In this document: one piece after another, positions 569 through 26,580 of the stretch
How positions within the stretch are numbered: the stretch's first letter is position 1
Layout of the letters: each line of letters opens with the position of its first letter
Assembly (NCBI GenBank): GCA_913051705.1
Contig: CAJXCW010000026.1
Span: 1-32,275, forward strand
Reading direction: 5' to 3'
From: an uncultured bacterium
GTDB lineage: Bacteria; JAAXHH01
DNA length: 32,275 bases
Notes under the pieces: generated by a model
Told to the model about the DNA's origin: nothing
The model's database searches: none
What the model saw: only the letters and a program-made list of their open reading frames with translations
Made by a program: the position numbers and the translations under genes

Positions 569-2122
569 GTGAAGGCCGCCCTGGAATTAAAACTGAGTTT
601 GGATCAGGCTGAAGATCCTTCAATACAACGCAAACTGCTGGCAGAACAATTGAACATCTCCCCCCAACTCATTACGGCAGTGAAGTTGATTCGGCGATCG
701 ATAGACGCCCGAAAAAAAGCAATTCGGGTGCATCTGAAATTCGACGTATTCTGGGATGAACCGGCCCCCTCTGAAATACCCATCACCAAAAAGTATGCCC
801 AAATTTCTTCGATGCGTAAGGCCGTGATCGTTGGAAGCGGCCCTGCCGGTATGTTTGCGGCGTTGACGTTGATCGAACGTGGTATAAAACCTATTATCGT
901 CGAACGTGGTAAAAAGGTCAGACCACGTCGCAGGGACCTCGCGGCGATCCAGCGTAAAGGCCTGGTGAATCCTGATAGCAATTATTGTTTTGGCGAAGGG
1001 GGCGCCGGCACGTTTTCGGATGGGAAACTATACACGCGCGCCACCAAACGCGGAAATGTGGAAGCCGTCTTACGCACCTTGATCGCACACGGCGCGCATC
1101 CCGACATTCTGGTTGACACTCATCCGCATATCGGTTCAAACAAATTGCCCGAGGTGGTCGTAGCTATGCGGGAAAGTATTCTTGACGCGGGTGGAGAAAT
1201 ATGGTTTGAAAATCGTGTCACTGATTTGATTGTGGACCGGCAACGACGCATTAAAGGGGTAGTATCGGCGACTGGAAACCGATTTGAAGGAGAAGCTGTT
1301 ATTCTGGCTTCCGGGCATTCGGCTCGGGATGTTTTCGAATTGTTGCAGCGCTATGGCATTGACATGGAGGCTAAATCCTTTGCCATGGGCCTGCGTATTG
1401 AGCATCCCCAGCCCTTGATTGATCGCATTCAATACCATATGACGAAACGGGATCCCCGGTTGCCCGCAGCCAGTTATAGATTGACAGAAACGGTGCAGGG
1501 ACGCGGTGTGTTCTCCTTTTGTATGTGTCCCGGTGGATTTATTATTCCGGCAGCAACCGACTCTGACGAAGTGGTGGTCAACGGCATGAGCCTGTCGCGT
1601 CGCGATTCCCCTTATGCCAATTCGGGCATCGTGGTCTCCGTGGAGCCTGCCGATCTCGCGCCTTATCAGGAGCACGGCGCCTTAGCAGGCGTAGTTTTTC
1701 AAAAAGAGTTAGAGCATATGGCGTTTCAAGCTGGCGGTGGTCAGCAGCGGGCGCCGGCTCAGCGCGTCACCGATTTCCTGGAAGGACGCCTATCCTCGGA
1801 TTTGCCTCCTTGCAGCTATCACCCTGGACTGACCTCAGTGCGCCTGCACCAACTGTTGCCGGATTCGCTTGTAAAACGATTGCAGGAAGGGGTCCGAAAA
1901 TTTGAACATAAAATGCGGGGGTATGTGACGAAGGAAGCGGTGGTCGTTGGGGTCGAATCCCGCACCAGTACGCCTACTCGAATTCCCCGAGATCCTCATA
2001 CCCTTGAACACCCTGTAATTCCAGGATTGTACCCCTGTGGCGAAGGCGCGGGATATGCCGGAGGCATTGTCTCCGCCGCCATGGACGGAATACGGGTTGC
2101 GGAAGCCTATAGCAGGTCCTGA
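569..2122 (+). CDS. FAD-dependent dehydrogenase (COG2509-like)
   Basis: 517 residues. An N-terminal ~80-residue lead (helical, lysine-rich, then HLKFDVFW) precedes a Rossmann FAD-binding motif VIVGSGPAGMFAAL at about residues 87-100 and the ribose-binding acidic residue in IIVERG. The FGEGGAGTFSDGKL segment (~residues 141-154) and the C-terminal YPCGEGAGYAGGIVSAAMDG block (~490-510) are typical of the uncharacterised NAD(P)/FAD-dependent oxidoreductases of COG2509. Length and domain order fit that family, whose physiological substrate is unknown. GTG at 569 is chosen because it keeps the family's N-terminal lead; the preceding in-frame ATG option is closed at once by a stop. It stands alone: 96 bp separate it from the dioxygenase, and only relics follow. 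Confidence 0.85.
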   Translation: MKAALELKLSLDQAEDPSIQRKLLAEQLNISPQLITAVKLIRRSIDARKKAIRVHLKFDVFWDEPAPSEIPITKKYAQISSMRKAVIVGSGPAGMFAALTLIERGIKPIIVERGKKVRPRRRDLAAIQRKGLVNPDSNYCFGEGGAGTFSDGKLYTRATKRGNVEAVLRTLIAHGAHPDILVDTHPHIGSNKLPEVVVAMRESILDAGGEIWFENRVTDLIVDRQRRIKGVVSATGNRFEGEAVILASGHSARDVFELLQRYGIDMEAKSFAMGLRIEHPQPLIDRIQYHMTKRDPRLPAASYRLTETVQGRGVFSFCMCPGGFIIPAATDSDEVVVNGMSLSRRDSPYANSGIVVSVEPADLAPYQEHGALAGVVFQKELEHMAFQAGGGQQRAPAQRVTDFLEGRLSSDLPPCSYHPGLTSVRLHQLLPDSLVKRLQEGVRKFEHKMRGYVTKEAVVVGVESRTSTPTRIPRDPHTLEHPVIPGLYPCGEGAGYAGGIVSAAMDGIRVAEAYSRS

Positions 2123-2139
2123 TGTAGACAATCGATCCG

Positions 2140-2315
2140 CATCTGTAAAATGCATCTATCGGAAATATCTTCAAGGAAATTTCACTGTCCCGCGCCCCGT
2201 CGGTGTGGCGGGTATAGTAGGTCACCAGCACCTCATCATCCTGGAACAGCACGGCGGCGTAGGCGGCATCATGGTCCGGGCGTTGATCAATGTCTTTGAA
2301 AGGTCCCCAGGTATG
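2140..2315 (-). pseudogene. Sialidase/BNR-type hydrolase, C-terminal relic
   Basis: Read on the minus strand from 2315, the frame gives HTWGPFKDIDQRPDHDAAYA, then DDEVLVTYYTRHTDGARDSE and LKIFPIDAF. This pattern (D-H-D-A-A-Y, D-E-V-L-V-T-Y-Y-T, R-D-S-E-I) resembles the last strands of sialidase-like six-bladed propeller proteins. There is no start, and upstream it joins directly to sequence of a different gene (permease-like) in another frame, so this is a fragment. The family assignment is by eye and moderate. Confidence 0.45.
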
Positions 2316-2500
2316 GACGTGAGCGGCGTAATGCGTAGCGCCTGCAGCGTGCCCCCACTCTTCTCCAGAAGCACAAGCGAGGCGCCGATCATATAAGTCG
2401 TGCTGCCAAGGCCCCCCAGATAGAAAACGGCCAACAGCCTACCGGCGTAGTCGGGGTGGACGAAGAAACGCCCCGCCAATGCCGACCAGAACACCTGTCG
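2316..2500 (-). pseudogene. ABC-2 type permease relic
   Basis: The minus strand reads FYLGGLGSTTYMIGASLVLL followed by EKSGGTLQALRITPL. The E-K-x-x-G-T-L-x-A-L-x-x-T-P-L signature is the cytoplasmic loop after the second membrane helix of ABC-2 (drug or polysaccharide export) permeases. Only about 60 residues are recognisable. The downstream end runs straight into the sialidase-like fragment near 2316, so a deletion or recombination joint is likely there. No nucleotide-binding partner gene is nearby. Confidence 0.45.
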
Positions 2501-2728
2501 AATGAAATTCTTAGGTCGCTTTCGACAACGAAGGAAGCGAGAGGAGATCAACAGTGCACGGTGCAGGTCACCAGAGCAAAGTGAGAAGGAGGACGGCCAT
2601 GAAGCCCTCCGGCGCAAGGGGAGCATAGGGTACGTCAGGACTGTGTATAAGAGCCCGTCTTTTTATACGAGTCTGAATACGTATGGTTTCAGGAAATAAT
2701 ACATCCCTGTTTACTGCCTCCGGTGCCG

Positions 2729-2791
2729 GCGCAAATCTTCTACAAGGAATACCCCAGGAATCCGATCTGGCTGTTCACCAACCAAGGGTTG
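2729..2791 (+). pseudogene. Relic of an LVIVD-repeat lipoprotein gene (second copy of the 10513 gene)
   Basis: Bases 2756-2791 match 12163-12198, near the 3' end of the intact LVIVD gene, at 32 of 36 positions by eye. The frame here reads IFYKEYPRNPIWLFTNQG, against VYMEYDRNLIWLFTNHG in the intact protein. Nothing else of the gene is left on either side, so this is the scar of a lost paralogue. Confidence 0.65.
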
Positions 2792-3198
2792 ACAAAGGCA
2801 TGCGAAAATCGTATCTTTCCATTTACGGAATGTCTCCTTTTAATGGATAATCACTATCGTACCCATCAACGTAGTAAACACGGCCTTTAACGGGACGCTT
2901 TGAAGACGTTTTAAATAATGCTTATCACCGTCTTTGGTGTGCACAACCGCATCCAGTTCAGAGACTTGCTCTGGACTGAGGAAGAGAGATATCACTGATA
3001 TCCAGAACGACCTGGAGATTAAACACTTCTATAACGAAAGGGGGACAAAGTTAGTATTTATTTTGCCAACCAAGTTTATTCGCTATCAAAGGCGTGTTTT
3101 CGATCTTACTAGGAAAAACTTGATGGCTTGGAGGTAATGGTTCGATGAACTATTACACATGTGAACGGCGATGAAAAATCGCGTGGTCCAATGTCAAT
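2792..3198. other. Gene-poor stretch without a recognisable gene
   Basis: I see no supported gene here. On the minus strand an open stretch ending at 2840 contains SELDAVVHTKDGDKHYLKRL, which looks protein-like but has no start and no family that I recognise; it may be another relic. A 67-codon plus-strand frame (2934-3137) has no ribosome binding site and no recognisable content. Confidence 0.4.
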
Positions 3199-3227
3199 GT
3201 TGATATCAGGGACAACAGGATATCAAC
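3199..3227. repeat. Perfect 9-bp inverted repeat upstream of the small lipoprotein gene
   Basis: GTTGATATC (3199-3207) and GATATCAAC (3219-3227) are exact reverse complements with an 11-base loop. The repeat ends 23 bases before the lipoprotein ATG, so it could be an operator or a leader hairpin. No promoter is clear around it. Confidence 0.5.
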
Positions 3228-3250
3228 CGCCATTTTAAAAGGGAGATACA

Positions 3251-3469
3251 ATGGACAAGCTATTAGCAAGATATCTCGGTATATTCGTTTTGGCCCTGTG
3301 CCTGGGCTTTGCCGCGTGCAACGGCAGCGAACCTGCAGTGGAGGAGCAAGCGGAACCGACCGAGAATGTCGCTACTGAAGCGGTAGCCGATAGTGCAGCT
3401 GCAGTTTCAGAAGGTGACACCGCGGAAACCGTTGAGTCAGAGGCGGAGACCCCGCCAGAAGGTGAATAG
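3251..3469 (+). CDS. Small acidic lipoprotein
   Basis: 72 residues. A short positively charged N-terminus and a hydrophobic core (YLGIFVLALCLGFAAC) end in a lipobox-like F-A-A-C with Cys at about residue 23. The rest (roughly 49 residues) is an unstructured tail of Glu, Ala, Thr, Val and Ser with almost no basic residue. This fits a lipid-anchored, acidic periplasmic or surface peptide of unknown role. The start is supported by an AGGGAGA ribosome binding site 4-10 bases upstream. It is monocistronic: an inverted repeat precedes it and a hairpin terminator follows 8 bases after the stop. I do not recognise a named family. Confidence 0.75.
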   Translation: MDKLLARYLGIFVLALCLGFAACNGSEPAVEEQAEPTENVATEAVADSAAAVSEGDTAETVESEAETPPEGE

Positions 3470-3477
3470 GTAAAAAC

Positions 3478-3525
3478 GCAGGTCGTGGCTCCCAATACCA
3501 CGACCTGCTGATTTCATCTTTTGTT
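3478..3525 (+). terminator. Hairpin terminator after the small lipoprotein gene
   Basis: GCAGGTCGTGG (3478-3488) pairs perfectly with CCACGACCTGC (3498-3508) around a 9-base loop. The stem is followed after a few bases by a T-rich run (ATTTCATCTTTTGTT). The run of T is imperfect, so termination efficiency is uncertain. Confidence 0.7.
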
Positions 3526-3639
3526 ATAACCTGCATCTTATTCGTAAAGTCAGAAGTAGAGAGCTTGATGCGTAGGCTGTTGCAGATGGTGTTACGGGCC
3601 CTCCTTTAGGGCCGCTGATAAGATCGTGTTTCCAGCTAT

Positions 3640-3941
3640 TCCAACACCCCCTCCGATCATATCGTATGAGAGCAATGCCTCCAAATCGTCTACCCAATGG
3701 CTCCTGATCTCCTCTTTCTACCCTGACCGCAAAACATCGGCGTGTGCCATCTTCTTCCAATAGAGCATTCTCATCTGTGACACCATATAGGCCAGATTCT
3801 TTTTTCGCCTTTTGCCTTATGTAAACGGGGGAATGAGTGCTTCTTCTACATACGTATCCCATCTATAAAATCCAATCTATCAAGATGGATATTTGAGAGC
3901 AATGGACTGATGATTTCGCCTACCACGTGACATCCACGGTG
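3640..3941 (-). pseudogene. Group II intron reverse transcriptase/maturase relic
   Basis: On the minus strand one frame (3941 to 3846) gives EIISPLLSNIHLDRLD, the RT block normally written G-G-x-I-S-P-L-L-x-N-I-x-L-x-x-L-D in group II intron proteins. After a one-base frame change the next frame (from 3855 down) gives YVEEALIPPFT, a stop, then GKRRKKNLAY, which matches the conserved segment that follows that block in LtrA-type proteins, normally ending I-P-x-Y-T-x-G-K-R-R. A further stop follows. The catalytic Y-A-D-D block, the X/maturase domain and intron RNA domain V are not found. This is a dead remnant of a retroelement. Confidence 0.65.
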
Positions 3942-4173
3942 GGATCGAAATCCGCGTGCATTATTGGTGAATGGTGGTTCATGTCATGCTTCCAGGATGG
4001 AACACATGACCTCTTGAATCATTTTGTCAGACCAGGTAGGAATTCGTGCAGTTGTTGCTAAGTCTCAAAGAAATGGGGGTTGCCATTGAGACGGTCATCC
4101 TAGGGGCTTCACCTCGGGTGCTTCCCATCAGGAATTCCACGTTAAATTGTCGAAAGTACGTGATATATGGTAG

Positions 4174-4521
4174 CTATGCGCTGTCTTCACCGTCACCGTC
4201 ACCACCAAGGCCAGTCATGGAAGCCACGCATCTTATCACAACGACAACAGCAGCGGCGTTAACTAATGCGCTGACATTGCCAAGAATAGAGTTAACATAA
4301 CCACCCAGCACCGGAATTGCATCGATTCCGCCGCTTACAGCTGCCAACCCTAACGCAAATACAAGAAAACCAGTGGTGTCGTCTTTACCTACAGCCAAGA
4401 TTCCTACTACGACTCCCAAAACCGCCAATATAATAGCTGAAGCCGGTATGGGCACACCAACTCCACCAATAATTGCGACCACTAAACCTAACCAAATAGC
4501 AATTCGTTCAACTAATTGCAT
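4174..4521 (-). CDS. Small integral membrane protein, four predicted helices
   Basis: 115 residues with about four hydrophobic segments: near residues 6-24, 27-44, 50-72 and 80-103. A short polar turn holds KDDTTGF, and a C-terminal GGDGDGED tail follows the last helix. The layout (two short helices, a K/N-D-T-T-x-F turn, two more helices) resembles small conserved hypothetical membrane proteins found in archaea and some bacteria; no function is known to me. The start at 4521 is preferred over an upstream ATG because a strong purine-rich ribosome binding site (AAGGGGG) lies 7 bases before it. A minus-strand TTGACA at 4654-4649 with TATAGT at 4628-4623 could be its promoter, but the 20-base spacing is too wide. 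Confidence 0.7.
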   Translation of the reverse strand: MQLVERIAIWLGLVVAIIGGVGVPIPASAIILAVLGVVVGILAVGKDDTTGFLVFALGLAAVSGGIDAIPVLGGYVNSILGNVSALVNAAAVVVVIRCVASMTGLGGDGDGEDSA

Positions 4522-5048
4522 TTCAAACCCCCTTCGAAATGCTCGGTTCAATGAAAAAAGCTATTGGGAATTATGATGACAGGGAGCACCGTCGAGGCGA
4601 TCACCCTTTTTAAAGGAATATCACTATAGAATACCTTTGGGTGACTAATGTCAAGTAATATCCGGAATTGATTTCTATCCTGTTCGATATTTCAACCGAT
4701 CCAACCTACGAAAAGTCTGTCTTTCATAGGTTGGACATTACCCTTTGGAGGAATCAAGAAGGCGGACAATCAGGCTGTTTATTCCCCTTGTACGGATCGT
4801 CACGGCGCGTAACGATCCCCTTTCCGGATCATCAGACACCATCTGGATTTTGTCAGATGCACTATTCACGGAACCAACAGTCACGGAATTGGAAACCGTT
4901 GAGGCAGAGTGGGCTTCGCACGGCGTAAATACATACGTCCGAACTTTGCTCGTGGAAAACGCCACAGGCGCCGCCCCTCGCTCTTTCGACAACGCAGGAT
5001 AGAAGGATGGAAGGTTTACCTCAACCCCCTCCACTTTACATCCTGTTT
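4522..5048. other. Intergenic stretch with no confident gene
   Basis: It holds the hairpin at 4701-4734 and two overlapping open frames on opposite strands: plus 4745-5002, with a TTG start and no family recognised, and minus 5034-4738. Neither has a convincing ribosome binding site or known motifs. The plus frame (85 codons, containing SDTIWILSDALF) looks the more protein-like of the two but I cannot support it as a gene. Confidence 0.4.
4701..4734. repeat. Hairpin-forming inverted repeat
   Basis: CCAACCTACGAAA (4701-4713) and TTTCATAGGTTGG (4722-4734) pair at 12 of 13 positions around an 8-base loop. There is no T-run on either side, so it is not a clear intrinsic terminator. It may be a leftover of a small repeat element. 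Confidence 0.5.
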
Positions 5049-6077
5049 TTACAGCGGGAGTGAAAAAGTTTTCTCCTCCACCATACTGCGGTTGACGGCT
5101 TCGGTGAATTCCATGTATTTCAGCCCTATATCGAACGGTGTGTATGTGACCTTCTCTACGCCTATGATGGCGTTGATAAATTCCTGCTCAACCCGCCAGC
5201 CGCCTCGGTCTTCATCCCGGATCTCGATCTCCTGCAGGGCCTCGTCACCCCGTTTAGCGCCAAATAGTTTTTTATTGGCCATTTTTATGGTGCCTTCGCT
5301 GCCGTAGATCATTGCTCCGTTTTCATCGGCCAGACCCTGCACAGAGGAGATTTTCATGTACCCCTGGGCCCCGCAGGCCAGCTCCATGATAACATCGATG
5401 TGGTCCGGCACCCGCACGGCACATGCCATACCGGTTTCAGGGTCTGTGCGCGTCTTCACGAAGGTCTTACCCTTCGCAAAGACACTGACGGCATCGCCCA
5501 TCCATCCTATCATGGATTCGTACCAGATCCCTGCAGTCATAATGTTCATGCCGCTCAGGTCATAGTCTTGTCGCCAGTGCATCGGGCTGTCTTTGTCGAG
5601 AAAGGTCCCTGCGGATCGGACTTCTACGCTAAGGATATCGCCAACGTAGCCTTCTGCGATGAGCCGCTGAATGGTCTTATCCGCCCACAGCGTCATGGGT
5701 GCGGGGACGACCTGGGCGATCAGATCGGGATTTTCATGGGCGGCATCCCGCATGAGATGCGCTTCTTCGGCGTTCATGGCCATGCGGGCCTCGACCAGAA
5801 TATGTTTGCCTGCAGAGATCGCTGCCAGCGTGGTAGCACAGTGAAGATACGGCCAGGTGCCGACTACGATCGCATCCGTATCATCCGCCGCGATCAACTC
5901 ATTCCAGTTTTCGTAAATGCTCGGGATGCCGAACTGCGTGGCCACACGTTCCGACGAGGCCCGGCTCCGGTTACACACGCTGACGATTTCCACCCCATCG
6001 ATCGCCTGCAACAATGGGATGTGACTGCTGACGGTATTTTGGCCCGCCCCGACGATACCTATACGAATCTTGTCCAT
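5049..6077 (-). CDS. Gfo/Idh/MocA-family oxidoreductase
   Basis: 342 residues. The N-terminal Rossmann domain has IRIGIVGAGQNTVSSH (residues 4-19), then DDTDAIVVGTWPYLH. The C-terminal alpha/beta dimer domain follows (WRQDYDLSGMNIMTAGIW region). Family members use NAD(P) to oxidise or reduce sugars, inositols and related polyols in the cytoplasm. The usual E-K-P motif, whose Lys takes part in catalysis, reads E-A-R here (residues 96-98, HILVEARMAMN), so either the chemistry is changed or catalysis uses another residue. GGAG lies 9 bases before ATG 6077. It is the last gene of the minus-strand cluster, 62 bp after the SGNH hydrolase. Confidence 0.88.
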   Translation of the reverse strand: MDKIRIGIVGAGQNTVSSHIPLLQAIDGVEIVSVCNRSRASSERVATQFGIPSIYENWNELIAADDTDAIVVGTWPYLHCATTLAAISAGKHILVEARMAMNAEEAHLMRDAAHENPDLIAQVVPAPMTLWADKTIQRLIAEGYVGDILSVEVRSAGTFLDKDSPMHWRQDYDLSGMNIMTAGIWYESMIGWMGDAVSVFAKGKTFVKTRTDPETGMACAVRVPDHIDVIMELACGAQGYMKISSVQGLADENGAMIYGSEGTIKMANKKLFGAKRGDEALQEIEIRDEDRGGWRVEQEFINAIIGVEKVTYTPFDIGLKYMEFTEAVNRSMVEEKTFSLPL

Positions 6078-7157: not shown

Positions 7158-7907
7158 TCAAATCCCTAATAGCCGTTCCGCATTACCACCCAGAGCCAGT
7201 CGCTTGGCCTCGTCGGAAATACGAGCGGTGATAATTTTACCGATCTGTGGTCGTGGGTCCATCAGCGGTACGTCGGAACCGAACAGCACACGATCCTTCC
7301 CGCCTTTTTCGACCAGTTCCTCGATAACGCCGGGCATCCGATAGGTTGAGCAGGTTTCCAGATAGATGTTTGGGTATTTCTGCACCGCTGCGATGGCTTC
7401 CGCACGCGCTTCAGGCACGTTACCGGAATGACCGGCGACGAAGTTCGCGTCGGGATACATCGGTGCGATGTCCTCGAGATACCGGGGCCTGTTGTTTTCA
7501 AGATGGTCCGTGTGAAAGATAATCGTCAGTCCACGTTCGTCGGCGAATGTATAGATTGGATGCCAGGGCGTCTGGTTAAACGGCCAGGACGTATACGGCG
7601 GATACAATTTGATGGCACGAAAATGCAACTCGTCGATCGCCCGTTCCAACTCCGGCAGCATAAGCTCCGGCATGGTAGGCGATACATAGGCGAACCCTAC
7701 AAACCGGTCCGGATGCTGCGCGATAAACTTCGCTGCCAGATCGTTGCCTGTCGTCCCATCCGGATGAAAAATGTGGAACAGGCAGGACACGTCGATGCCG
7801 ACGGCATCCATGGCATGGAGCATCAGCTTCGGATTATCATTCATCCCGAACCGCTCCCACCGACCTACATGGCCATGGAAATCAATCACGCGTATGCCGT
7901 CTATCAT
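7158..7907 (-). CDS. Amidohydrolase_2-family TIM-barrel metal hydrolase
   Basis: 249 residues. The metal-site motifs of the COG2159 amidohydrolase group are all visible: DFHGHVG (His11, His13), FHTDH (His132), VAGHSGN (His160) and FGSDVP (Asp212). The family hydrolyses or decarboxylates small ring or carboxylate substrates in the cytoplasm; the substrate is unknown here. A longer frame upstream is open to 8051, but the true start is ATG 7907: GGAG lies 9 bases before it, and the longer version would overlap the next gene and add a non-family N-terminus. It is 19 bp downstream of a related gene (7927-8676), which suggests an old tandem duplication. Confidence 0.85.
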   Translation of the reverse strand: MIDGIRVIDFHGHVGRWERFGMNDNPKLMLHAMDAVGIDVSCLFHIFHPDGTTGNDLAAKFIAQHPDRFVGFAYVSPTMPELMLPELERAIDELHFRAIKLYPPYTSWPFNQTPWHPIYTFADERGLTIIFHTDHLENNRPRYLEDIAPMYPDANFVAGHSGNVPEARAEAIAAVQKYPNIYLETCSTYRMPGVIEELVEKGGKDRVLFGSDVPLMDPRPQIGKIITARISDEAKRLALGGNAERLLGI

Positions 7908-7926
7908 GGGTGTTATCTCCGATGGG

Positions 7927-8676
7927 TCAAATTCCCAATATTCTTTCCACATTACCTGCACAGACCATACGCAACTCATCCTCGTTAAGATCGGTGTGGT
8001 GCAGGTAGAACAGGATGGGCCCCATAGCATAACGCGGATACCACGACCCATAGATCAAACGGCTGGCGCCAAATTGCCGCTTCAGGGATTCCACCTCGCC
8101 GATGGGCTCATAGCGACTGAGTTCGAGCGATGCATTGGCGAGTGAATCAAGCATCGGGCGTACGACAAGCGCGTGGGTATAATGGGCGCCTAACAGCACC
8201 GTTTTTAAATCAGGATAGGCCTGTAGCGTCGTAATCAAGTCATGGGGATCGACATCCGTCAAGGGAATCCATAACGGAATACCGGCTTCACTGAGCCAGG
8301 ACAGCAAGTTATCGTAACCCCACGAGCGGAACGGCAGCCCGGCGGATTGGGCATTATGCAGCCGGACGGACCGCACGCGGTCTTCGTGATGCATCGCTTG
8401 AATCTGCGTCAGGGAGTCGGTCGTTGGGGTCACCGACCATTGCGGAATCAGCCTTCCTCCCTCATCCAGCCAGTCGTCCAGCAGACGATTGCCGTCCGTC
8501 GGGCTTATCTCTTCGGTCTGCGCGTGATAGATCACAGCCCGGTCGATGCCGTGGTAGCCCATTTCATCGATCAACTGCGCCTGGCTCTGGCAGGGCGACG
8601 GCTCGGTATAATGGTTGCCTACACACACGTTGGCGTCGATAACGGGTATGCGGGGGGAGAAAGAGAGAGAGGACAT
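7927..8676 (-). CDS. Amidohydrolase_2-like protein lacking the metal-binding residues
   Basis: 249 residues, the same length as its downstream neighbour and with the same ending (GNVERILGI against GNAERLLGI). The fold markers of the family remain, but the metal ligands do not. The N-terminal D-x-H-x-H is DANVCVG (residues 14-20). The F-G-S-D-x-P block is YGSWYP (209-214), so the Asp is Trp. LGAHYTHAL replaces the central H-x-G block. It is therefore probably not a metal hydrolase in the usual sense. It may be a partner of the neighbour or a binding protein. The ribosome binding site GAGG lies inside the last codons of the racemase fragment upstream, so the two are translationally linked. Start ATG 8676. 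Confidence 0.78.
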   Translation of the reverse strand: MSSLSFSPRIPVIDANVCVGNHYTEPSPCQSQAQLIDEMGYHGIDRAVIYHAQTEEISPTDGNRLLDDWLDEGGRLIPQWSVTPTTDSLTQIQAMHHEDRVRSVRLHNAQSAGLPFRSWGYDNLLSWLSEAGIPLWIPLTDVDPHDLITTLQAYPDLKTVLLGAHYTHALVVRPMLDSLANASLELSRYEPIGEVESLKRQFGASRLIYGSWYPRYAMGPILFYLHHTDLNEDELRMVCAGNVERILGI

Positions 8677-20016: not shown

Positions 20017-23000
20017 ATGCCCAAACCATCCATCACGATCAAAGGCGCCCGGGTCCACAATCTGAAAAACGTGAGTCTGGAGTTGCCTAAAAATGCGCTG
20101 ATCTGTTTTACCGGCGTATCCGGCTCCGGGAAATCGTCTCTGGCTTTCGACACCTTATATGCGGAAGGACAACGACGCTACGTGGAGTCGCTCTCTGCGT
20201 ATGCCCGCCAATTTCTTGGTCAGATGCAGAAACCGGATGTCGATCAGATCACCGGCCTGTCCCCCGCTATTTCCATTGAACAGAAAGCGTCCGGATTTAA
20301 TCCCCGTTCCACGGTTGGCACCATTACCGAGATCTATGATTTTCTGCGCGTCTTATATGCACGGATCGGAACACCCCATTGTACCCAATGCGGTAAAGAA
20401 ATCGGCGCTCAGACCCGGGAGCAGATCGTCAGTCGTATCCTGACGCTGCCCGAAGGATCGCGCCTTCATATGCTGGCGCCCGTCATCCAGGGCCGTCGCG
20501 GGGAATACAAAGATCTATTCGAAGACTTACTCAAACAGGGTTATCTCAGGGCGCGTGTCAACGGCGACATCGTCAATCTGTCCGATAATCCGGGGCTTGA
20601 CCGCAACATGCGGCATACGATAGAAGTGGTGACCGACAGGTTGGTCATACGTGATGGGATCAAAACCCGGGTCCTTGACGCCGTCGAAGGGGCGTTGCAC
20701 CTGAGCAACGGGGTCGTGATGGTCAACGTGGAGGATAGCGAAGGTAACAGGTCGGATCTGCTTTTCAGCACACAATATGCCTGTACCCAATGCGGATTGA
20801 GTTACGAAGAACCCACGCCGCAATTGTTTTCCTTCAACAGTCCGCAGGGCATGTGCCCGACCTGTCACGGGCTGGGTACAATGATGCGTTTTGAACCCGA
20901 ATTGGTCATTCCTGATCCGAAAAAATCTATTAATGAAGGGGCTATAAAGCCGATTGGCCGTATTCCCAATCTCTGGAAAAGGCACTTTCTGGAAGGCGCG
21001 GCTGATCACATGGGATTTACGCTGGATACCCCCTGGGAAAAATTAACCGGGAAACAGAAAGAAGCCTTACTGCATGGGTTGGGCTATAAGCGTCTTACGT
21101 TCACCTTCCGTAACGGGCGGGGAGGCGAGTGGAGCCACAAAGACCGATTCAGAGGCGTAATTACGGATCTGGAGAAGCGATACCATAGCCTGAAATCCAA
21201 ACGTCATAAGGCGGATCTTGAACAGTATATGGCCATCGGCCTGTGTGACGGATGCCAGGGCGACCGGCTCAAGCCGGAAGCCCTGGCCGTGACATTGAAT
21301 CGCCTGTCTATAACCGATCTATGCCATCTTTCGGTGGAAGAAGTTCATCATTTCTTTCAATCTCTTACGCTGACCGAGGCGCAGCAATATATTGCCGAGG
21401 AAGCACTCAAGGAAATACGGGCACGATTGGATTTTTTGCTGAACGTGGGGCTCAATTATCTCAATCTGGAGCGAACGGCGCCGACCCTGTCCGGCGGGGA
21501 AGCACAGCGTATTCGTCTGGCCAGCCAGATCGGACGTGGCTTGGTCGGCGTGTTGTATGTCCTCGATGAGCCGAGCATCGGGCTGCATCCCCGCGATAAT
21601 GGCCGTCTGCTGGACACCCTGCGTCTGCTCCGCGATCAGGGTAATACCGTCATTATCGTAGAACATGATGAAGAAACCATGTGGGCCGCAGATCATCTGG
21701 TGGATTTCGGTCCGGGAGCCGGTATCAAAGGCGGCGAGATTGTAGCCGAAGGCCTGCCGAAAAACGTCGCTGCCAATAAAAAATCATTGACCGGCCAGTA
21801 TCTCAGCGGAAAAAAAACGATCCCCATCCCTGCCATAAGGCGTCCGGTGAACGATAGATGGGTGGAAATCATCGGCGCCACGCAAAACAATCTGAAGAAT
21901 GTCCACGCCCATCTGCCTGTCGGGGTGTTTACCTGTGTAACAGGGGTATCAGGGTCCGGCAAAAGTTCATTAATTAACGACATTCTGTACGCCGTGCTGG
22001 CAAGGGAACTCAACAGAGCCCGGATAGAACCGGGCGCGTATCAAAAAATCAAAGGGAGCGAGCACCTGGACAAGGTGATCGACATCGATCAGACGCCCAT
22101 TGGCCGGACACCGCGGTCCAATCCGGCCACCTATACCAAAGTGTTCGACAACATCCGATCGTTGTTTGCAGATACGCCGGAGGCGAAAGTCCGTGGATAT
22201 AAACCGGGCCGGTTCAGCTTCAACGTAAAAGGCGGCCGGTGCGAGGCCTGCCAGGGCAACGGCGCCACGTGCGTGGAGATGGACTTTCTGGCCGATGTCT
22301 GGATCACCTGCCCGGTCTGTGATGGCAAAAGGTTCGACCGGGAGACGCTGGAAATAAAGTATAAGGGCCATGCTATTGCTGATGTTCTGGGTATGGATGT
22401 GCAGGAAGCCCTCGATCTATTCAAGCCCATCCCGTCTATCGCACGTATCCTGAAGACGCTGCACGATGTCGGTCTGGATTATATCAAACTCGGACAACCG
22501 GCGCCGACGCTGTCCGGCGGGGAAGCGCAGCGGATCAAACTGGCCAAAGAGCTTTGCAAACGCAGCACAGGACGCACGCTGTACGTACTCGATGAACCGA
22601 CAACCGGGCTCCATTTTGAGGATATCACGCATCTTCTCAATGTATTGCATGCCTTTGTGGATGCCGGGAATACGGTTATCGTGATCGAACATAATACAGA
22701 AGTCATCAAAACAGCGGACTGGATCATCGATCTGGGACCGGAGGGCGGTGAAGGCGGTGGCCGTATCATCGCCGAAGGGACCCCTGAAGAGGTGGCGGCG
22801 GTAGCTGAATCGTATACCGGTCAAATCTTGAGCCAGGTGCTGTCTGGCCAGAGGTTGCAGATCGACCAACCGGCCAGAAAAAACAATATTTCGGCGGCTA
22901 AAGACGGACACATCCGGGAAATCACCGTACGGGGGGCACGAGAACACAATCTCCGGGATCTGCAGGTGACAATACCCCGTGACCGAATGACTGTTTTTAC

Positions 23001-25770
23001 AGGGGTGTCGGGCTCCGGTAAGACGTCTCTTGCCCTTGATACGATCTACGCTGAAGGCCAGCGGCGGTATGTGGAGTCTCTTTCCGCCTATGCAAGGCAG
23101 TTTCTGCAGCAGATGCAAAAGCCGAAGGTGGACCACATTACGGGGCTCTCGCCGGCCATTTCCATTGAACAAAAAGCCGCCGGCAGGAATCCAAGGTCTA
23201 CCGTCGGCACCATCACGGAAATATATGAGTACCTCCGTGCCCTCTATGCCCTGATCGGCTTACCACACTGTCCCCAATGCCGCATTCCCATCGGCGTCCA
23301 GACGGCCAGTCAGATTGTGGATCGTATTCTGGCCTTGCCGGAACAGACACGGACGACTTTGCATGCGCCAATGGAACCCGATGGAGCAGAGGGCTATGAC
23401 GCCCTGCTGGACCGCGCCCGCCGCAACGGCTTTGTCCGAATACGCATCGATGGTGAACTGCATCGGTTGGATGAAGACATTCTGATCGATAAACGCCGAA
23501 AACACGAAGTATGCGTTGTGGTGGACCGCATTGTTATCCGGAAAGGGACGCAACAGCGGCTGGCAGATTCGGTTGAGACGGCCCTGGAACTATCGGGAGG
23601 ATGGGTGATTGCCGAGATCCAGGAGCGGGATGCCGATCAGAGTCGTGATGTCCGTTTCAGCCAGCATTACTCCTGCCCATCATGCGGCGCAAGTTATGAA
23701 GAAGTGTCTCCACAAAGCTTTTCGTTCAACCATCAGACCGGCATGTGTCAGGAATGCGAAGGCCTCGGCATGCAGCCCGGTATTGATCTCAACCTGCTGA
23801 TCCCCGATCGGTCGAAATCCATCCGTCAGGGAGCCCTGACGGTCTGGTGGGACCGCCCCATAGCATCGCATCCGATACTCGATATGCTCGAACTTGTAGG
23901 CAAAGAATACGGCTTTTCACTCGATACTCCCATCGAATCAATGACCCAGGAACAGCTTCAGGTGATCCTGCATGGTAGTGGCCTGTGGATCGGGGTGGGG
24001 AATAAAGCGAAAGGAAGAAAAAAGATGGGGCAACCTTCCTCTCTTCCTCTCCTACAATCATCCTCTCTTTCTTTCCAATTCCGTGGTATATTTCCCACCG
24101 TTGAACTCGTCGCCAGGTACGCCAATCAGTTTTCCGAATTAGGGCGTATGCTTCAGCCTGTATCCTGTTCAGCCTGCGGCGGCGGACGTCTGCGGCCGGA
24201 GAGCCTGGCGGTGACGATCAATGATTTGTCCATCGCTGATCTGTGTACCCTGGCAGTAGATAAGGCCCTGATATTTGTTAACCGGATTACGCTGTCTGCT
24301 GAACAGGAAAAACTGGTCGGCGAGGTCCTGATGGAGATACGAAACCGACTTCGGTTTCTGGCTGATGTGGGGTTGGAATACCTGGCCCTGGACCGTCGGG
24401 CCCCGACCCTGTCCGGCGGTGAGGCGCAACGTATTCGATTGGCCAGCCAGATCGGTTCCGGGTTGACCGGTGTGCTGTATGTGCTCGACGAGCCGACCAT
24501 CGGACTGCATCCCCGTGACAATCGCCGACTCATTCAGGCGCTGCTCAATCTGCGCGACCTGGGAAACACACTCATCATGGTGGAACATGATCGGGATACG
24601 CTCGAACAGGCTGACTATCTGGTCGATTTCGGCCCGGGCGCCGGGACCCATGGCGGACGCATCGTGAGCGAGGGAACGCCCAAAGCGGTCCGTCGGAATA
24701 AAGACTCTCTGACCGGCCGTTATCTCAGCGGTCGATTACAGATCGAAATACCGGAAACACGCCGTAAACCGGGGCGCAAGAAGCTACGCATTCTAGGGGC
24801 ACGGCAGAATAATCTTAAGAATATTGATGTAGCCCTGCCACTCGGCCTGTTCATCGGTATCACCGGCGTATCCGGCTCCGGCAAGAGTTCGCTGATCAAT
24901 GATATTCTGTATCCGGCACTGGCTTCCAAGCTGCATCGATCCCAACTGAATCCCGGTCCCCACGATGAAATCGAAGGGCTGCAATACCTGGATAAAGTGA
25001 TCAATATCACCCAGGCGCCCATCGGCTATTCACCGAGGTCCGACCCGGCCACCTATGTCGGCGTCTTTGATCAGGTCCGTGCTCTGTTCGCCCAGACGCC
25101 GGAAGCGCGCGTACGCGGCTATAAATCACGGCGGTTCAGCTTCAACGTGCCGGCCGGCCGGTGCGAAGCCTGTCAGGGACTCGGCGTACGTAAAATCGAA
25201 ATGCACTTTCTCGCGGACGTGTGGGTAACGTGCGAGGAATGTCGGGGCAAGCGGTACATGCAGGAAACACTCGAAGTTACCTACAAAGGAAAGACCATCG
25301 CCGATACACTCGAAATGACCGTAGCCGAAGCGCTGGCGCATTTCGAAAATGTGCCCAAATTAAAACGCATGCTGCAAACGCTCTACGACGTCGGCCTGGA
25401 CTATATCCACCTCGGCCAGTCCGCCATCACCCTGTCGGGCGGCGAGGCACAGCGTGTCAAACTCTCTAAGGAACTATCGCGCCCCGGCACCGGCAAAACG
25501 ATCTATCTCCTTGATGAACCCACAACGGGGTTACATTTCGATGACATCCGCAAGCTTCTGGTTGTCCTCAACCGGCTGGTAGACAAGGGCAATACGGTGA
25601 TCGTTATTGAACACAACATGGATGTGATCAAAACCACGGACTGGATTATTGATCTCGGCCCGGAGGGCGGCGACCAGGGCGGTCATATTTCAGCCACCGG
25701 GCCGCCTGAAGAGGTGGCCGCCTCCCTTTCTCATACCGGACGTATTCTGGCGGAAGAACTGGCCCGGTAG
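20017..25770 (+). CDS. uvrA: Excinuclease ABC subunit A, tandem fusion of two UvrA copies
   Basis: 1917 residues, about twice a normal UvrA (~940). UvrA finds DNA damage and loads UvrB in nucleotide excision repair. Copy 1 covers residues ~1-950 and copy 2 ~966-1917. Four ATPase P-loops G-V-S-G-S-G-K occur near residues 33, 643, 996 and 1617. Four L-S-G-G-E-A-Q-R signatures and four V/L-L-D-E-P Walker B blocks are intact. The zinc modules are present in both copies, for example CEACQGNGATCVEMDF and CEACQGLGVRKIEMHF. So neither copy is obviously dead. Copy 2 has a low-complexity stretch (residues ~1327-1355) where copy 1 has the segment after HGLGYKRLTF. Fused double UvrA is known from Chlamydiae. 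A good promoter precedes it. Confidence 0.95.
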   Translation: MPKPSITIKGARVHNLKNVSLELPKNALICFTGVSGSGKSSLAFDTLYAEGQRRYVESLSAYARQFLGQMQKPDVDQITGLSPAISIEQKASGFNPRSTVGTITEIYDFLRVLYARIGTPHCTQCGKEIGAQTREQIVSRILTLPEGSRLHMLAPVIQGRRGEYKDLFEDLLKQGYLRARVNGDIVNLSDNPGLDRNMRHTIEVVTDRLVIRDGIKTRVLDAVEGALHLSNGVVMVNVEDSEGNRSDLLFSTQYACTQCGLSYEEPTPQLFSFNSPQGMCPTCHGLGTMMRFEPELVIPDPKKSINEGAIKPIGRIPNLWKRHFLEGAADHMGFTLDTPWEKLTGKQKEALLHGLGYKRLTFTFRNGRGGEWSHKDRFRGVITDLEKRYHSLKSKRHKADLEQYMAIGLCDGCQGDRLKPEALAVTLNRLSITDLCHLSVEEVHHFFQSLTLTEAQQYIAEEALKEIRARLDFLLNVGLNYLNLERTAPTLSGGEAQRIRLASQIGRGLVGVLYVLDEPSIGLHPRDNGRLLDTLRLLRDQGNTVIIVEHDEETMWAADHLVDFGPGAGIKGGEIVAEGLPKNVAANKKSLTGQYLSGKKTIPIPAIRRPVNDRWVEIIGATQNNLKNVHAHLPVGVFTCVTGVSGSGKSSLINDILYAVLARELNRARIEPGAYQKIKGSEHLDKVIDIDQTPIGRTPRSNPATYTKVFDNIRSLFADTPEAKVRGYKPGRFSFNVKGGRCEACQGNGATCVEMDFLADVWITCPVCDGKRFDRETLEIKYKGHAIADVLGMDVQEALDLFKPIPSIARILKTLHDVGLDYIKLGQPAPTLSGGEAQRIKLAKELCKRSTGRTLYVLDEPTTGLHFEDITHLLNVLHAFVDAGNTVIVIEHNTEVIKTADWIIDLGPEGGEGGGRIIAEGTPEEVAAVAESYTGQILSQVLSGQRLQIDQPARKNNISAAKDGHIREITVRGAREHNLRDLQVTIPRDRMTVFTGVSGSGKTSLALDTIYAEGQRRYVESLSAYARQFLQQMQKPKVDHITGLSPAISIEQKAAGRNPRSTVGTITEIYEYLRALYALIGLPHCPQCRIPIGVQTASQIVDRILALPEQTRTTLHAPMEPDGAEGYDALLDRARRNGFVRIRIDGELHRLDEDILIDKRRKHEVCVVVDRIVIRKGTQQRLADSVETALELSGGWVIAEIQERDADQSRDVRFSQHYSCPSCGASYEEVSPQSFSFNHQTGMCQECEGLGMQPGIDLNLLIPDRSKSIRQGALTVWWDRPIASHPILDMLELVGKEYGFSLDTPIESMTQEQLQVILHGSGLWIGVGNKAKGRKKMGQPSSLPLLQSSSLSFQFRGIFPTVELVARYANQFSELGRMLQPVSCSACGGGRLRPESLAVTINDLSIADLCTLAVDKALIFVNRITLSAEQEKLVGEVLMEIRNRLRFLADVGLEYLALDRRAPTLSGGEAQRIRLASQIGSGLTGVLYVLDEPTIGLHPRDNRRLIQALLNLRDLGNTLIMVEHDRDTLEQADYLVDFGPGAGTHGGRIVSEGTPKAVRRNKDSLTGRYLSGRLQIEIPETRRKPGRKKLRILGARQNNLKNIDVALPLGLFIGITGVSGSGKSSLINDILYPALASKLHRSQLNPGPHDEIEGLQYLDKVINITQAPIGYSPRSDPATYVGVFDQVRALFAQTPEARVRGYKSRRFSFNVPAGRCEACQGLGVRKIEMHFLADVWVTCEECRGKRYMQETLEVTYKGKTIADTLEMTVAEALAHFENVPKLKRMLQTLYDVGLDYIHLGQSAITLSGGEAQRVKLSKELSRPGTGKTIYLLDEPTTGLHFDDIRKLLVVLNRLVDKGNTVIVIEHNMDVIKTTDWIIDLGPEGGDQGGHISATGPPEEVAASLSHTGRILAEELAR
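24035..24074. repeat. Octamer array inside the second UvrA copy
   Basis: CTTCCTCT, CTTCCTCT, CCTACAAT, CATCCTCT, CTTTCTTT in phase, preceded by a purine-rich run (from about 24008) that could partly pair with it. It encodes a Ser/Leu-rich linker (PSSLPLLQSSSLS) absent from the first copy. The frame is kept. Confidence 0.6.
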
Positions 25771-25982: not shown

Positions 25983-26580
25983 ATGCTAAAGCAACATGCA
26001 ACGCTATTCGGAGGATGGTTGTCTGCATTCATAGCGATGGTCGCGCTGTTCATCGTCGCACCGAATGCAGGCGCTGCTGATTGGGGGGGCCGAAGTCGGC
26101 ACAGAAGCACCGGGATTTAATCTGAAAGATCAAAACGATCAGGATGTTTCTCCGGATGATCTTATCAGAACAGGCCCGGTTGCGATCATATTCTTCCGCT
26201 CGGCTTCCTGGTGACCTTTTTGTAAAAAGCAGTTGGGGCAACTGCAAACAGATCTCAAACAGTTCGAAGATGCGGGCCTTCAGATCGTCGGCATCAGCTA
26301 TGATTCGGTAGAAACACTTAAGCAATACACAGATAAAAACAAGGTCGGCTATCTTCTGCTTTCCGACGCAGAGAGCAAGACCATCGATGCCTACGGCATT
26401 CGCAATACAGAGTTGAAATCGGGTTCGCGGATGGACGGTATTCCACATCCCGGGACGTTTCTAATTGACCGGGAAGGCATTGTCCGCGCGAAACTATCTG
26501 AAGCAGGATATAAGATCCGGCATACTACGGTGCGCTTCTTGAAGCATTGCATCGGCTATCACAAAAAAAGTGAATCTTGA
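25983..26580 (+). CDS. Secreted redoxin (AhpC/TSA, thioredoxin fold), probable selenoprotein with U-x-x-C; frame break in a G7 run
   Basis: ATG 25983 opens a signal peptide (LSAFIAMVALFIVAPNAGAA). In a run of seven G (26083-26089) the frame changes; with six G it would read straight into EVGTEAPGFNLKDQ, the usual redoxin start. Then comes AIIFFRSASW, an in-frame TGA (26212-26214), PFCKKQLGQLQ, VGISYDS and the cis-Pro block GIPHPGTFLIDREG. Relatives have R-S-A-x-W-C-P-x-C, so the TGA sits at the first redox Cys and would give U-P-F-C. A hairpin fitting bacterial SECIS rules follows. Alternatively ATG 26065 starts the mature frame without a signal. It probably reduces peroxides or disulfides in the periplasm. 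If the TGA is a plain stop, this is a pseudogene. The upstream promoter and intact rest of the frame argue for a live gene. Confidence 0.7.
26212..26245 (+). promoter_or_regulatory. Candidate bacterial SECIS element
   Basis: After the TGA (26212-26214), GCAGTTG (26229-26235) pairs perfectly with CAACTGC (26239-26245) around a GGG loop. The loop begins 21 bases after the TGA and has G at its first positions. The published bacterial SECIS pattern, as I recall it, asks for a 4-16 bp upper stem, a G among the first two loop bases, and about 16-37 bases between UGA and loop. All are met. Confidence 0.65.

Follow-up and report, generated by a model that had tools for sequence, protein, structure and literature searches.

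The window examined here, meaning the whole analysed stretch of 32,275 nucleotides, is the entire contig C26 of a 5.45 Mb genome that was assembled in 405 contigs and is 97.2% complete and 5.7% contaminated. One open reading frame of the window is 76% identical over 570 amino acids to a same-family genome, so the contig was taken to belong to that lineage. The gene of interest lies on the plus strand at 25983-26580 and encodes a redoxin with an in-frame TGA codon, preceded by a signal-peptide coding stretch and followed by a C-terminal helix. Two further features of the window were recorded. A 1917-amino-acid open frame at 20017-25770 (plus strand) contains the UvrA interaction domain and the UvrA DNA-binding domain twice each, along with repeated ABC ATPase signatures, as in a tandem-duplicated UvrA joined in one chain. 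The region at 2122-5049, nearly 3 kb in length and flanked by the gene for an FAD-dependent protein and a run of minus-strand genes, gave no Pfam match in six frames with stops masked and contained no long coding-like frame.

The reading frames of the redoxin gene were then resolved. The first-pass annotation had presented 25983-26580 as an otherwise complete redoxin, a description that did not hold: the span is 598 bases, which is not a multiple of three, and it contains two frame breaks that had gone unreported. The frame opened by the ATG at 25983 encodes a signal peptide (MLKQHATLFGGWLSAFIAMVALFIVAPNAGAADWGG; coding stretch 25983-26089) with a hydrophobic core and a cleavage-like AGA-A site, and reaches a TAA a few codons past a G7 tract at 26083-26089. 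The redoxin domain lies in the +1 frame relative to this ATG, where the sole upstream ATG is found at 26065, with no clear Shine-Dalgarno sequence before it. If the UGA at 26212 is read as selenocysteine (Sec), 171 codons are open from 26065 to the TGA at 26578-26580, and no other stop occurs across the domain within this frame. Past 26527-26529, a homologous C-terminal helix (ALLEALHRLSQKK) is again in the ATG 25983 frame, ending at a stop at 26571-26573; the segment at 26529-26573, comprising the helix GALLEALHRLSQKK and its stop, is homologous to the helix of the cysteine-containing homologues. In those homologues, which come from Sphingomonadales, a single frame runs from the signal peptide through the domain to the C-terminal helix (AVLAAVDALGQ and a stop in one example). 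Compared with these relatives, the gene as assembled thus has two one-base frame breaks and, apart from the UGA, is not an intact full-length frame. This comparison implies probable one-base indels near 26083-26089, between the signal-peptide and redoxin frames, and near 26527-26534, between the redoxin frame and that of ATG 25983.

An AhpC/TSA redoxin domain (PF00578) was matched at 26095-26490 (residues 5-136 of translation P0001) with E=6.1e-33 and 113.8 bits against a cut-off of 26, and the match continues across the TGA at 26212-26214. As the first-pass annotation had described, this codon occupies the place of the first cysteine in a W-C-P-F-C motif (...VAIIFFRSASW-U-PFCKKQLGQLQ...), with the partner cysteine of the predicted U-x-x-C pair encoded by the TGT at 26221-26223. 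The domain retains 25 of the 29 residues that are invariant in 10 homologues. The nearest solved structures by sequence were the Bcp-type thiol peroxidase 2cx3, the AhpE protein Rv2238c, and the ResA structure 3c71. Every NCBIfam model scored the redoxin subgroup below its cut-off, and no relatives were found in viral contigs.

The hairpin described in the first-pass annotation was also recovered. The sequence GCAGTTG-GGG-CAACTGC at 26229-26245 forms seven perfect pairs closed by a GGG loop and starts 14 bases 3' of the UGA. The bacterial SECIS element has been characterized as a hairpin directly 3' of the UGA with a G in a small apical loop (PMC1088965), and the window hairpin has this form. 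Its folding energy alone is ordinary (z of 0.2 and -0.9) and so is not diagnostic, and the hairpin geometry was instead counted on real in-frame TGAs with open sequence on either side, requiring 7 bp or more in the stem and a GGN loop of three bases. Among the 4165 such contexts in the 22% of the window genome that was scanned, only two (approximately 0.05%) showed this geometry, namely the redoxin gene and one site that looks non-coding. The same geometry was found at none of 6738 in-frame TGAs in 1.2 Mb of the same-family relative G005. With the stem threshold lowered, the scan recovered the G005 UGSC selenoprotein (GDUGSCSACSMHD), which lies on L204 at about 7562-7987 and whose UGA is followed 13 bases later by a 6-bp hairpin closed by the loop GCA. 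UGSC-family selenoproteins with one in-frame TGA occur in 12 same-family genomes (G001-G012) and in the order-level relative G014, and are absent from the window genome. No further credible selenoproteins emerged from the ab initio scan, which covered 22% of the window genome.

We assessed whether the host genome encodes the machinery for Sec insertion, which the first-pass annotation had named as a check on its proposal, and found all four components. The genome contains matches to selA (506 bits) and selD (285 bits), together with a tRNA-Sec (69.6 bits, anticodon TCA) on contig C222. The N-terminal part of selB runs to the end of contig C156 (L001) and the C-terminal part lies at the end of C222 (L007), just upstream of the tRNA-Sec on the same strand; the two parts are probably a single gene interrupted where the contigs end. 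A selB match was found in all 14 same-family genomes (the G006 match falling below the family cut-off) and a tRNA-Sec in 12 of the 14, indicating that the machinery is native to the lineage and unlikely to reflect contamination. In the order-level relative G014, whose assembly is 85% complete, neither selB nor tRNA-Sec was matched, a point that weighs against the Sec reading, although G014 does carry UGSC as a second family of UGA selenoproteins. These data also bear on whether UGA encodes an ordinary amino acid throughout the genome. The first-pass annotation had argued against such a recoded genetic code, and we agree, regarding its probability as negligible: open frames in the window terminate at UGA, the tRNA-Sec and its associated machinery are present, and the conserved genes tested (selA, selD, and FdhA) gave matches with no internal TGA. 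Formate dehydrogenase was separately considered as a second Sec client and was rejected, as its frame in the window genome is without a stop.

We further characterized the relatives of the redoxin. The order-level genome G014 encodes a redoxin (L058) that is 42% identical to that of the window and carries UGA at the same codon (RSASW-UGA-GFCK), and the identical sequence is present in GenBank JABIQT010000200.1 from Candidatus Latescibacterota SI072_bin148. The hairpin of L058, GCAGCT-GGTTG-AGCTGC, starts at the same offset as that of the window but has a 6-bp stem and a 5-nt loop. L058 also differs in its U-G-F-C motif and in a C-terminal fusion to DsbD_N (PF11412, E=6.5e-9; gene at 1393-2424), and the tree did not join the two redoxins with support. 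Same-family genomes encode paralogous redoxins of only about 30% identity (GYW-UGA-PLC; loci L030, L033, L041, L043, L045, L048, L050, and L055), which share with the window gene the PF00578 domain, the UGA codon, the hairpin offset of 14 bases, the stem length, and the GGN loop, as seen in GCAACTG-GGG-CAGTTGC and GCAACTC-GGA-GAGTTGC. No paralogue of this U-PLC type was found in the window genome, and no close orthologue of the window redoxin was detected in the same-family genomes at a 1e-15 cut-off. More distant homologues from Sphingomonadales carry cysteine at the UGA site (RSASWC(P)(F/Y)C); the homologue scan of contigs used a pattern requiring TGC or TGT at this codon and hence found mainly cysteine forms.

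The hairpins of these genes covary. In an ungapped alignment 97.6% of cells pair, with two-sided changes in three of the seven pairs, and sliding the hairpin partner by one to three columns lowers the pairing to 7-52%. The set consists of six distinct hairpins, three of which hardly differ from one another, and given this small size the covariation was read as supporting evidence, short of a formal test. The motif encoded by the hairpin, QLGQLQ, is kept in the Sec forms, whereas the cysteine forms differ (QLIAMN, QLKDVR), a pattern that would be expected if the RNA structure constrains the motif.

It was also considered that the gene could be an ordinary cysteine redoxin in which a nonsense mutation changed the cysteine codon to a stop, with the hairpin present by chance. 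The frameshifts show that broken genes exist in this genome, and the folding energy of the hairpin is unexceptional, both of which would be compatible with such an origin. However, both G014 and the paralogues carry the UGA and hairpin at this place, with compensatory changes, the full Sec machinery is present in the genome, and the hairpin geometry follows so small a fraction of its in-frame TGAs. The nonsense mutation is consequently very unlikely and was considered largely refuted, and Sec coding at 26212-26214 is well supported.

The state of the assembled copy was assessed against the frameshift background, for which the window genome was compared with 1.2 Mb of the same-family genome G005. 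Most of the apparently broken genes in a first count were shadow ORFs, and once these were removed the approximately 154 orthologous placements came to roughly 120-130. Only one confirmed frameshift was found among these sampled genes of the window genome, which lies in a Gfo/Idh/MocA-like oxidoreductase gene (L094, 1355-2598 on contig C9; 78% identical to G005) at ...GKHV/SETAS. At about one frameshift per 120-130 genes, a uniform error rate fails to explain two within a single 0.6-kb gene. A local assembly error and recent decay are both possible.

That the gene is a live selenoprotein gene in which both frameshifts stem from local errors of assembly or consensus was given close to an even chance. 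One of the breaks sits in the G7 tract, which is the only run of at least seven G or C in the window, the two breaks offset each other so that the expected full-length protein is regained, and the genome consists of 405 contigs with some contamination; against this, the frameshift background is low in the sampled genes and the second break lies outside any homopolymer. Alternatively, a former selenoprotein gene may be decaying, having inherited its UGA and SECIS element before the copy was inactivated by two real one-base indels, which was considered plausible at somewhat below an even chance. Decay is favored by the occurrence of both breaks in a single small gene where the background is low, by the severing of the signal peptide from the domain, and by the lack of a close orthologue in same-family genomes, which suggests a sporadically kept gene. 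The domain between the breaks nevertheless shows no other stop over 171 codons and keeps its conserved residues and a perfect hairpin, and the Sec machinery has been retained although no other U-redoxin was found in the genome. It is highly improbable that the G7 tract acts as a slippage switch, by phase variation or transcriptional slippage, between an exported selenoredoxin and a cytosolic form started at ATG 26065. The first-pass annotation had concluded that the gene is a live selenoprotein. Its identity as a selenoprotein gene is well supported by the machinery, the relatives, and the hairpin, while the two frameshifts leave the word "live" without the same footing; they lower its standing as a working full-length member and not its origin as a selenoprotein.

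Taken as a whole, the gene very probably encodes a Sec-containing, ancestrally exported Prx-like thiol:disulfide oxidoreductase of the AhpC/TSA fold with a U-x-x-C motif, in a copy with two frame breaks. In bacterial Sec insertion, SelB carrying Sec-tRNA binds a hairpin in the message and the UGA is decoded. At this locus, SelB with Sec-tRNA(Sec) would bind the hairpin just 3' of the UGA at 26212. The two breaks, which either arose in assembly or mark the beginning of gene loss, would place the signal peptide and the last approximately 14 residues out of frame; the stretch between them, with the domain, UGA, and hairpin, is open and could still be translated from ATG 26065, giving a product that lacks the export signal.

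By analogy with the CxxC homologues and the known chemistry of Sec, the UxxC motif would act as a thioredoxin-type selenolate/thiol pair, with Sec as the attacking selenolate and the cysteine at 26221 as its partner. The fold class is common to the Bcp/PrxQ peroxiredoxins and ResA. Unlike the thioredoxin-type UPFC pair of the window redoxin, the Bcp of the same genome has TPGC at this position, so that Sec replaces the peroxiredoxin threonine, and this alignment makes a role in disulfide exchange more likely than classic peroxidase activity. A location at the cell envelope is suggested by the signal peptide, together with the fusion of the G014 homologue to DsbD_N.

Selenoproteins of this kind have been described, both as Prx-like thiol:disulfide oxidoreductases with PF00578 and UxxC or UxxU (Table 1, PMC13188914) and as "Prx-like 1", a pfam00578 UxxC group with 225 Sec and 2740 Cys sequences in GOS (Table 2, PMC2398784). 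The window gene resembles these selenoproteins, whose type sequence is WP_010940744.1, in its Pfam domain, in having Sec as the first residue of UxxC, in the bacterial SECIS element right after the UGA, and in its many cysteine homologues. The gene is accordingly a member of the established PF00578 UxxC selenoprotein family, and it differs from the known kind in that its subgroup lacks an NCBIfam model and its assembled copy is frame-broken.

As the mechanism is already known, the surprise is modest. Genes of this kind would be truncated at the UGA by standard annotation, and the present locus adds a Sec-encoding Prx-like subgroup, for which there is no curated model, from a poorly known bacterial lineage. 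It also shows two redoxins that belong to one bacterial family but are only distantly related keeping the same geometry from UGA to hairpin, with compensatory changes in their stems.
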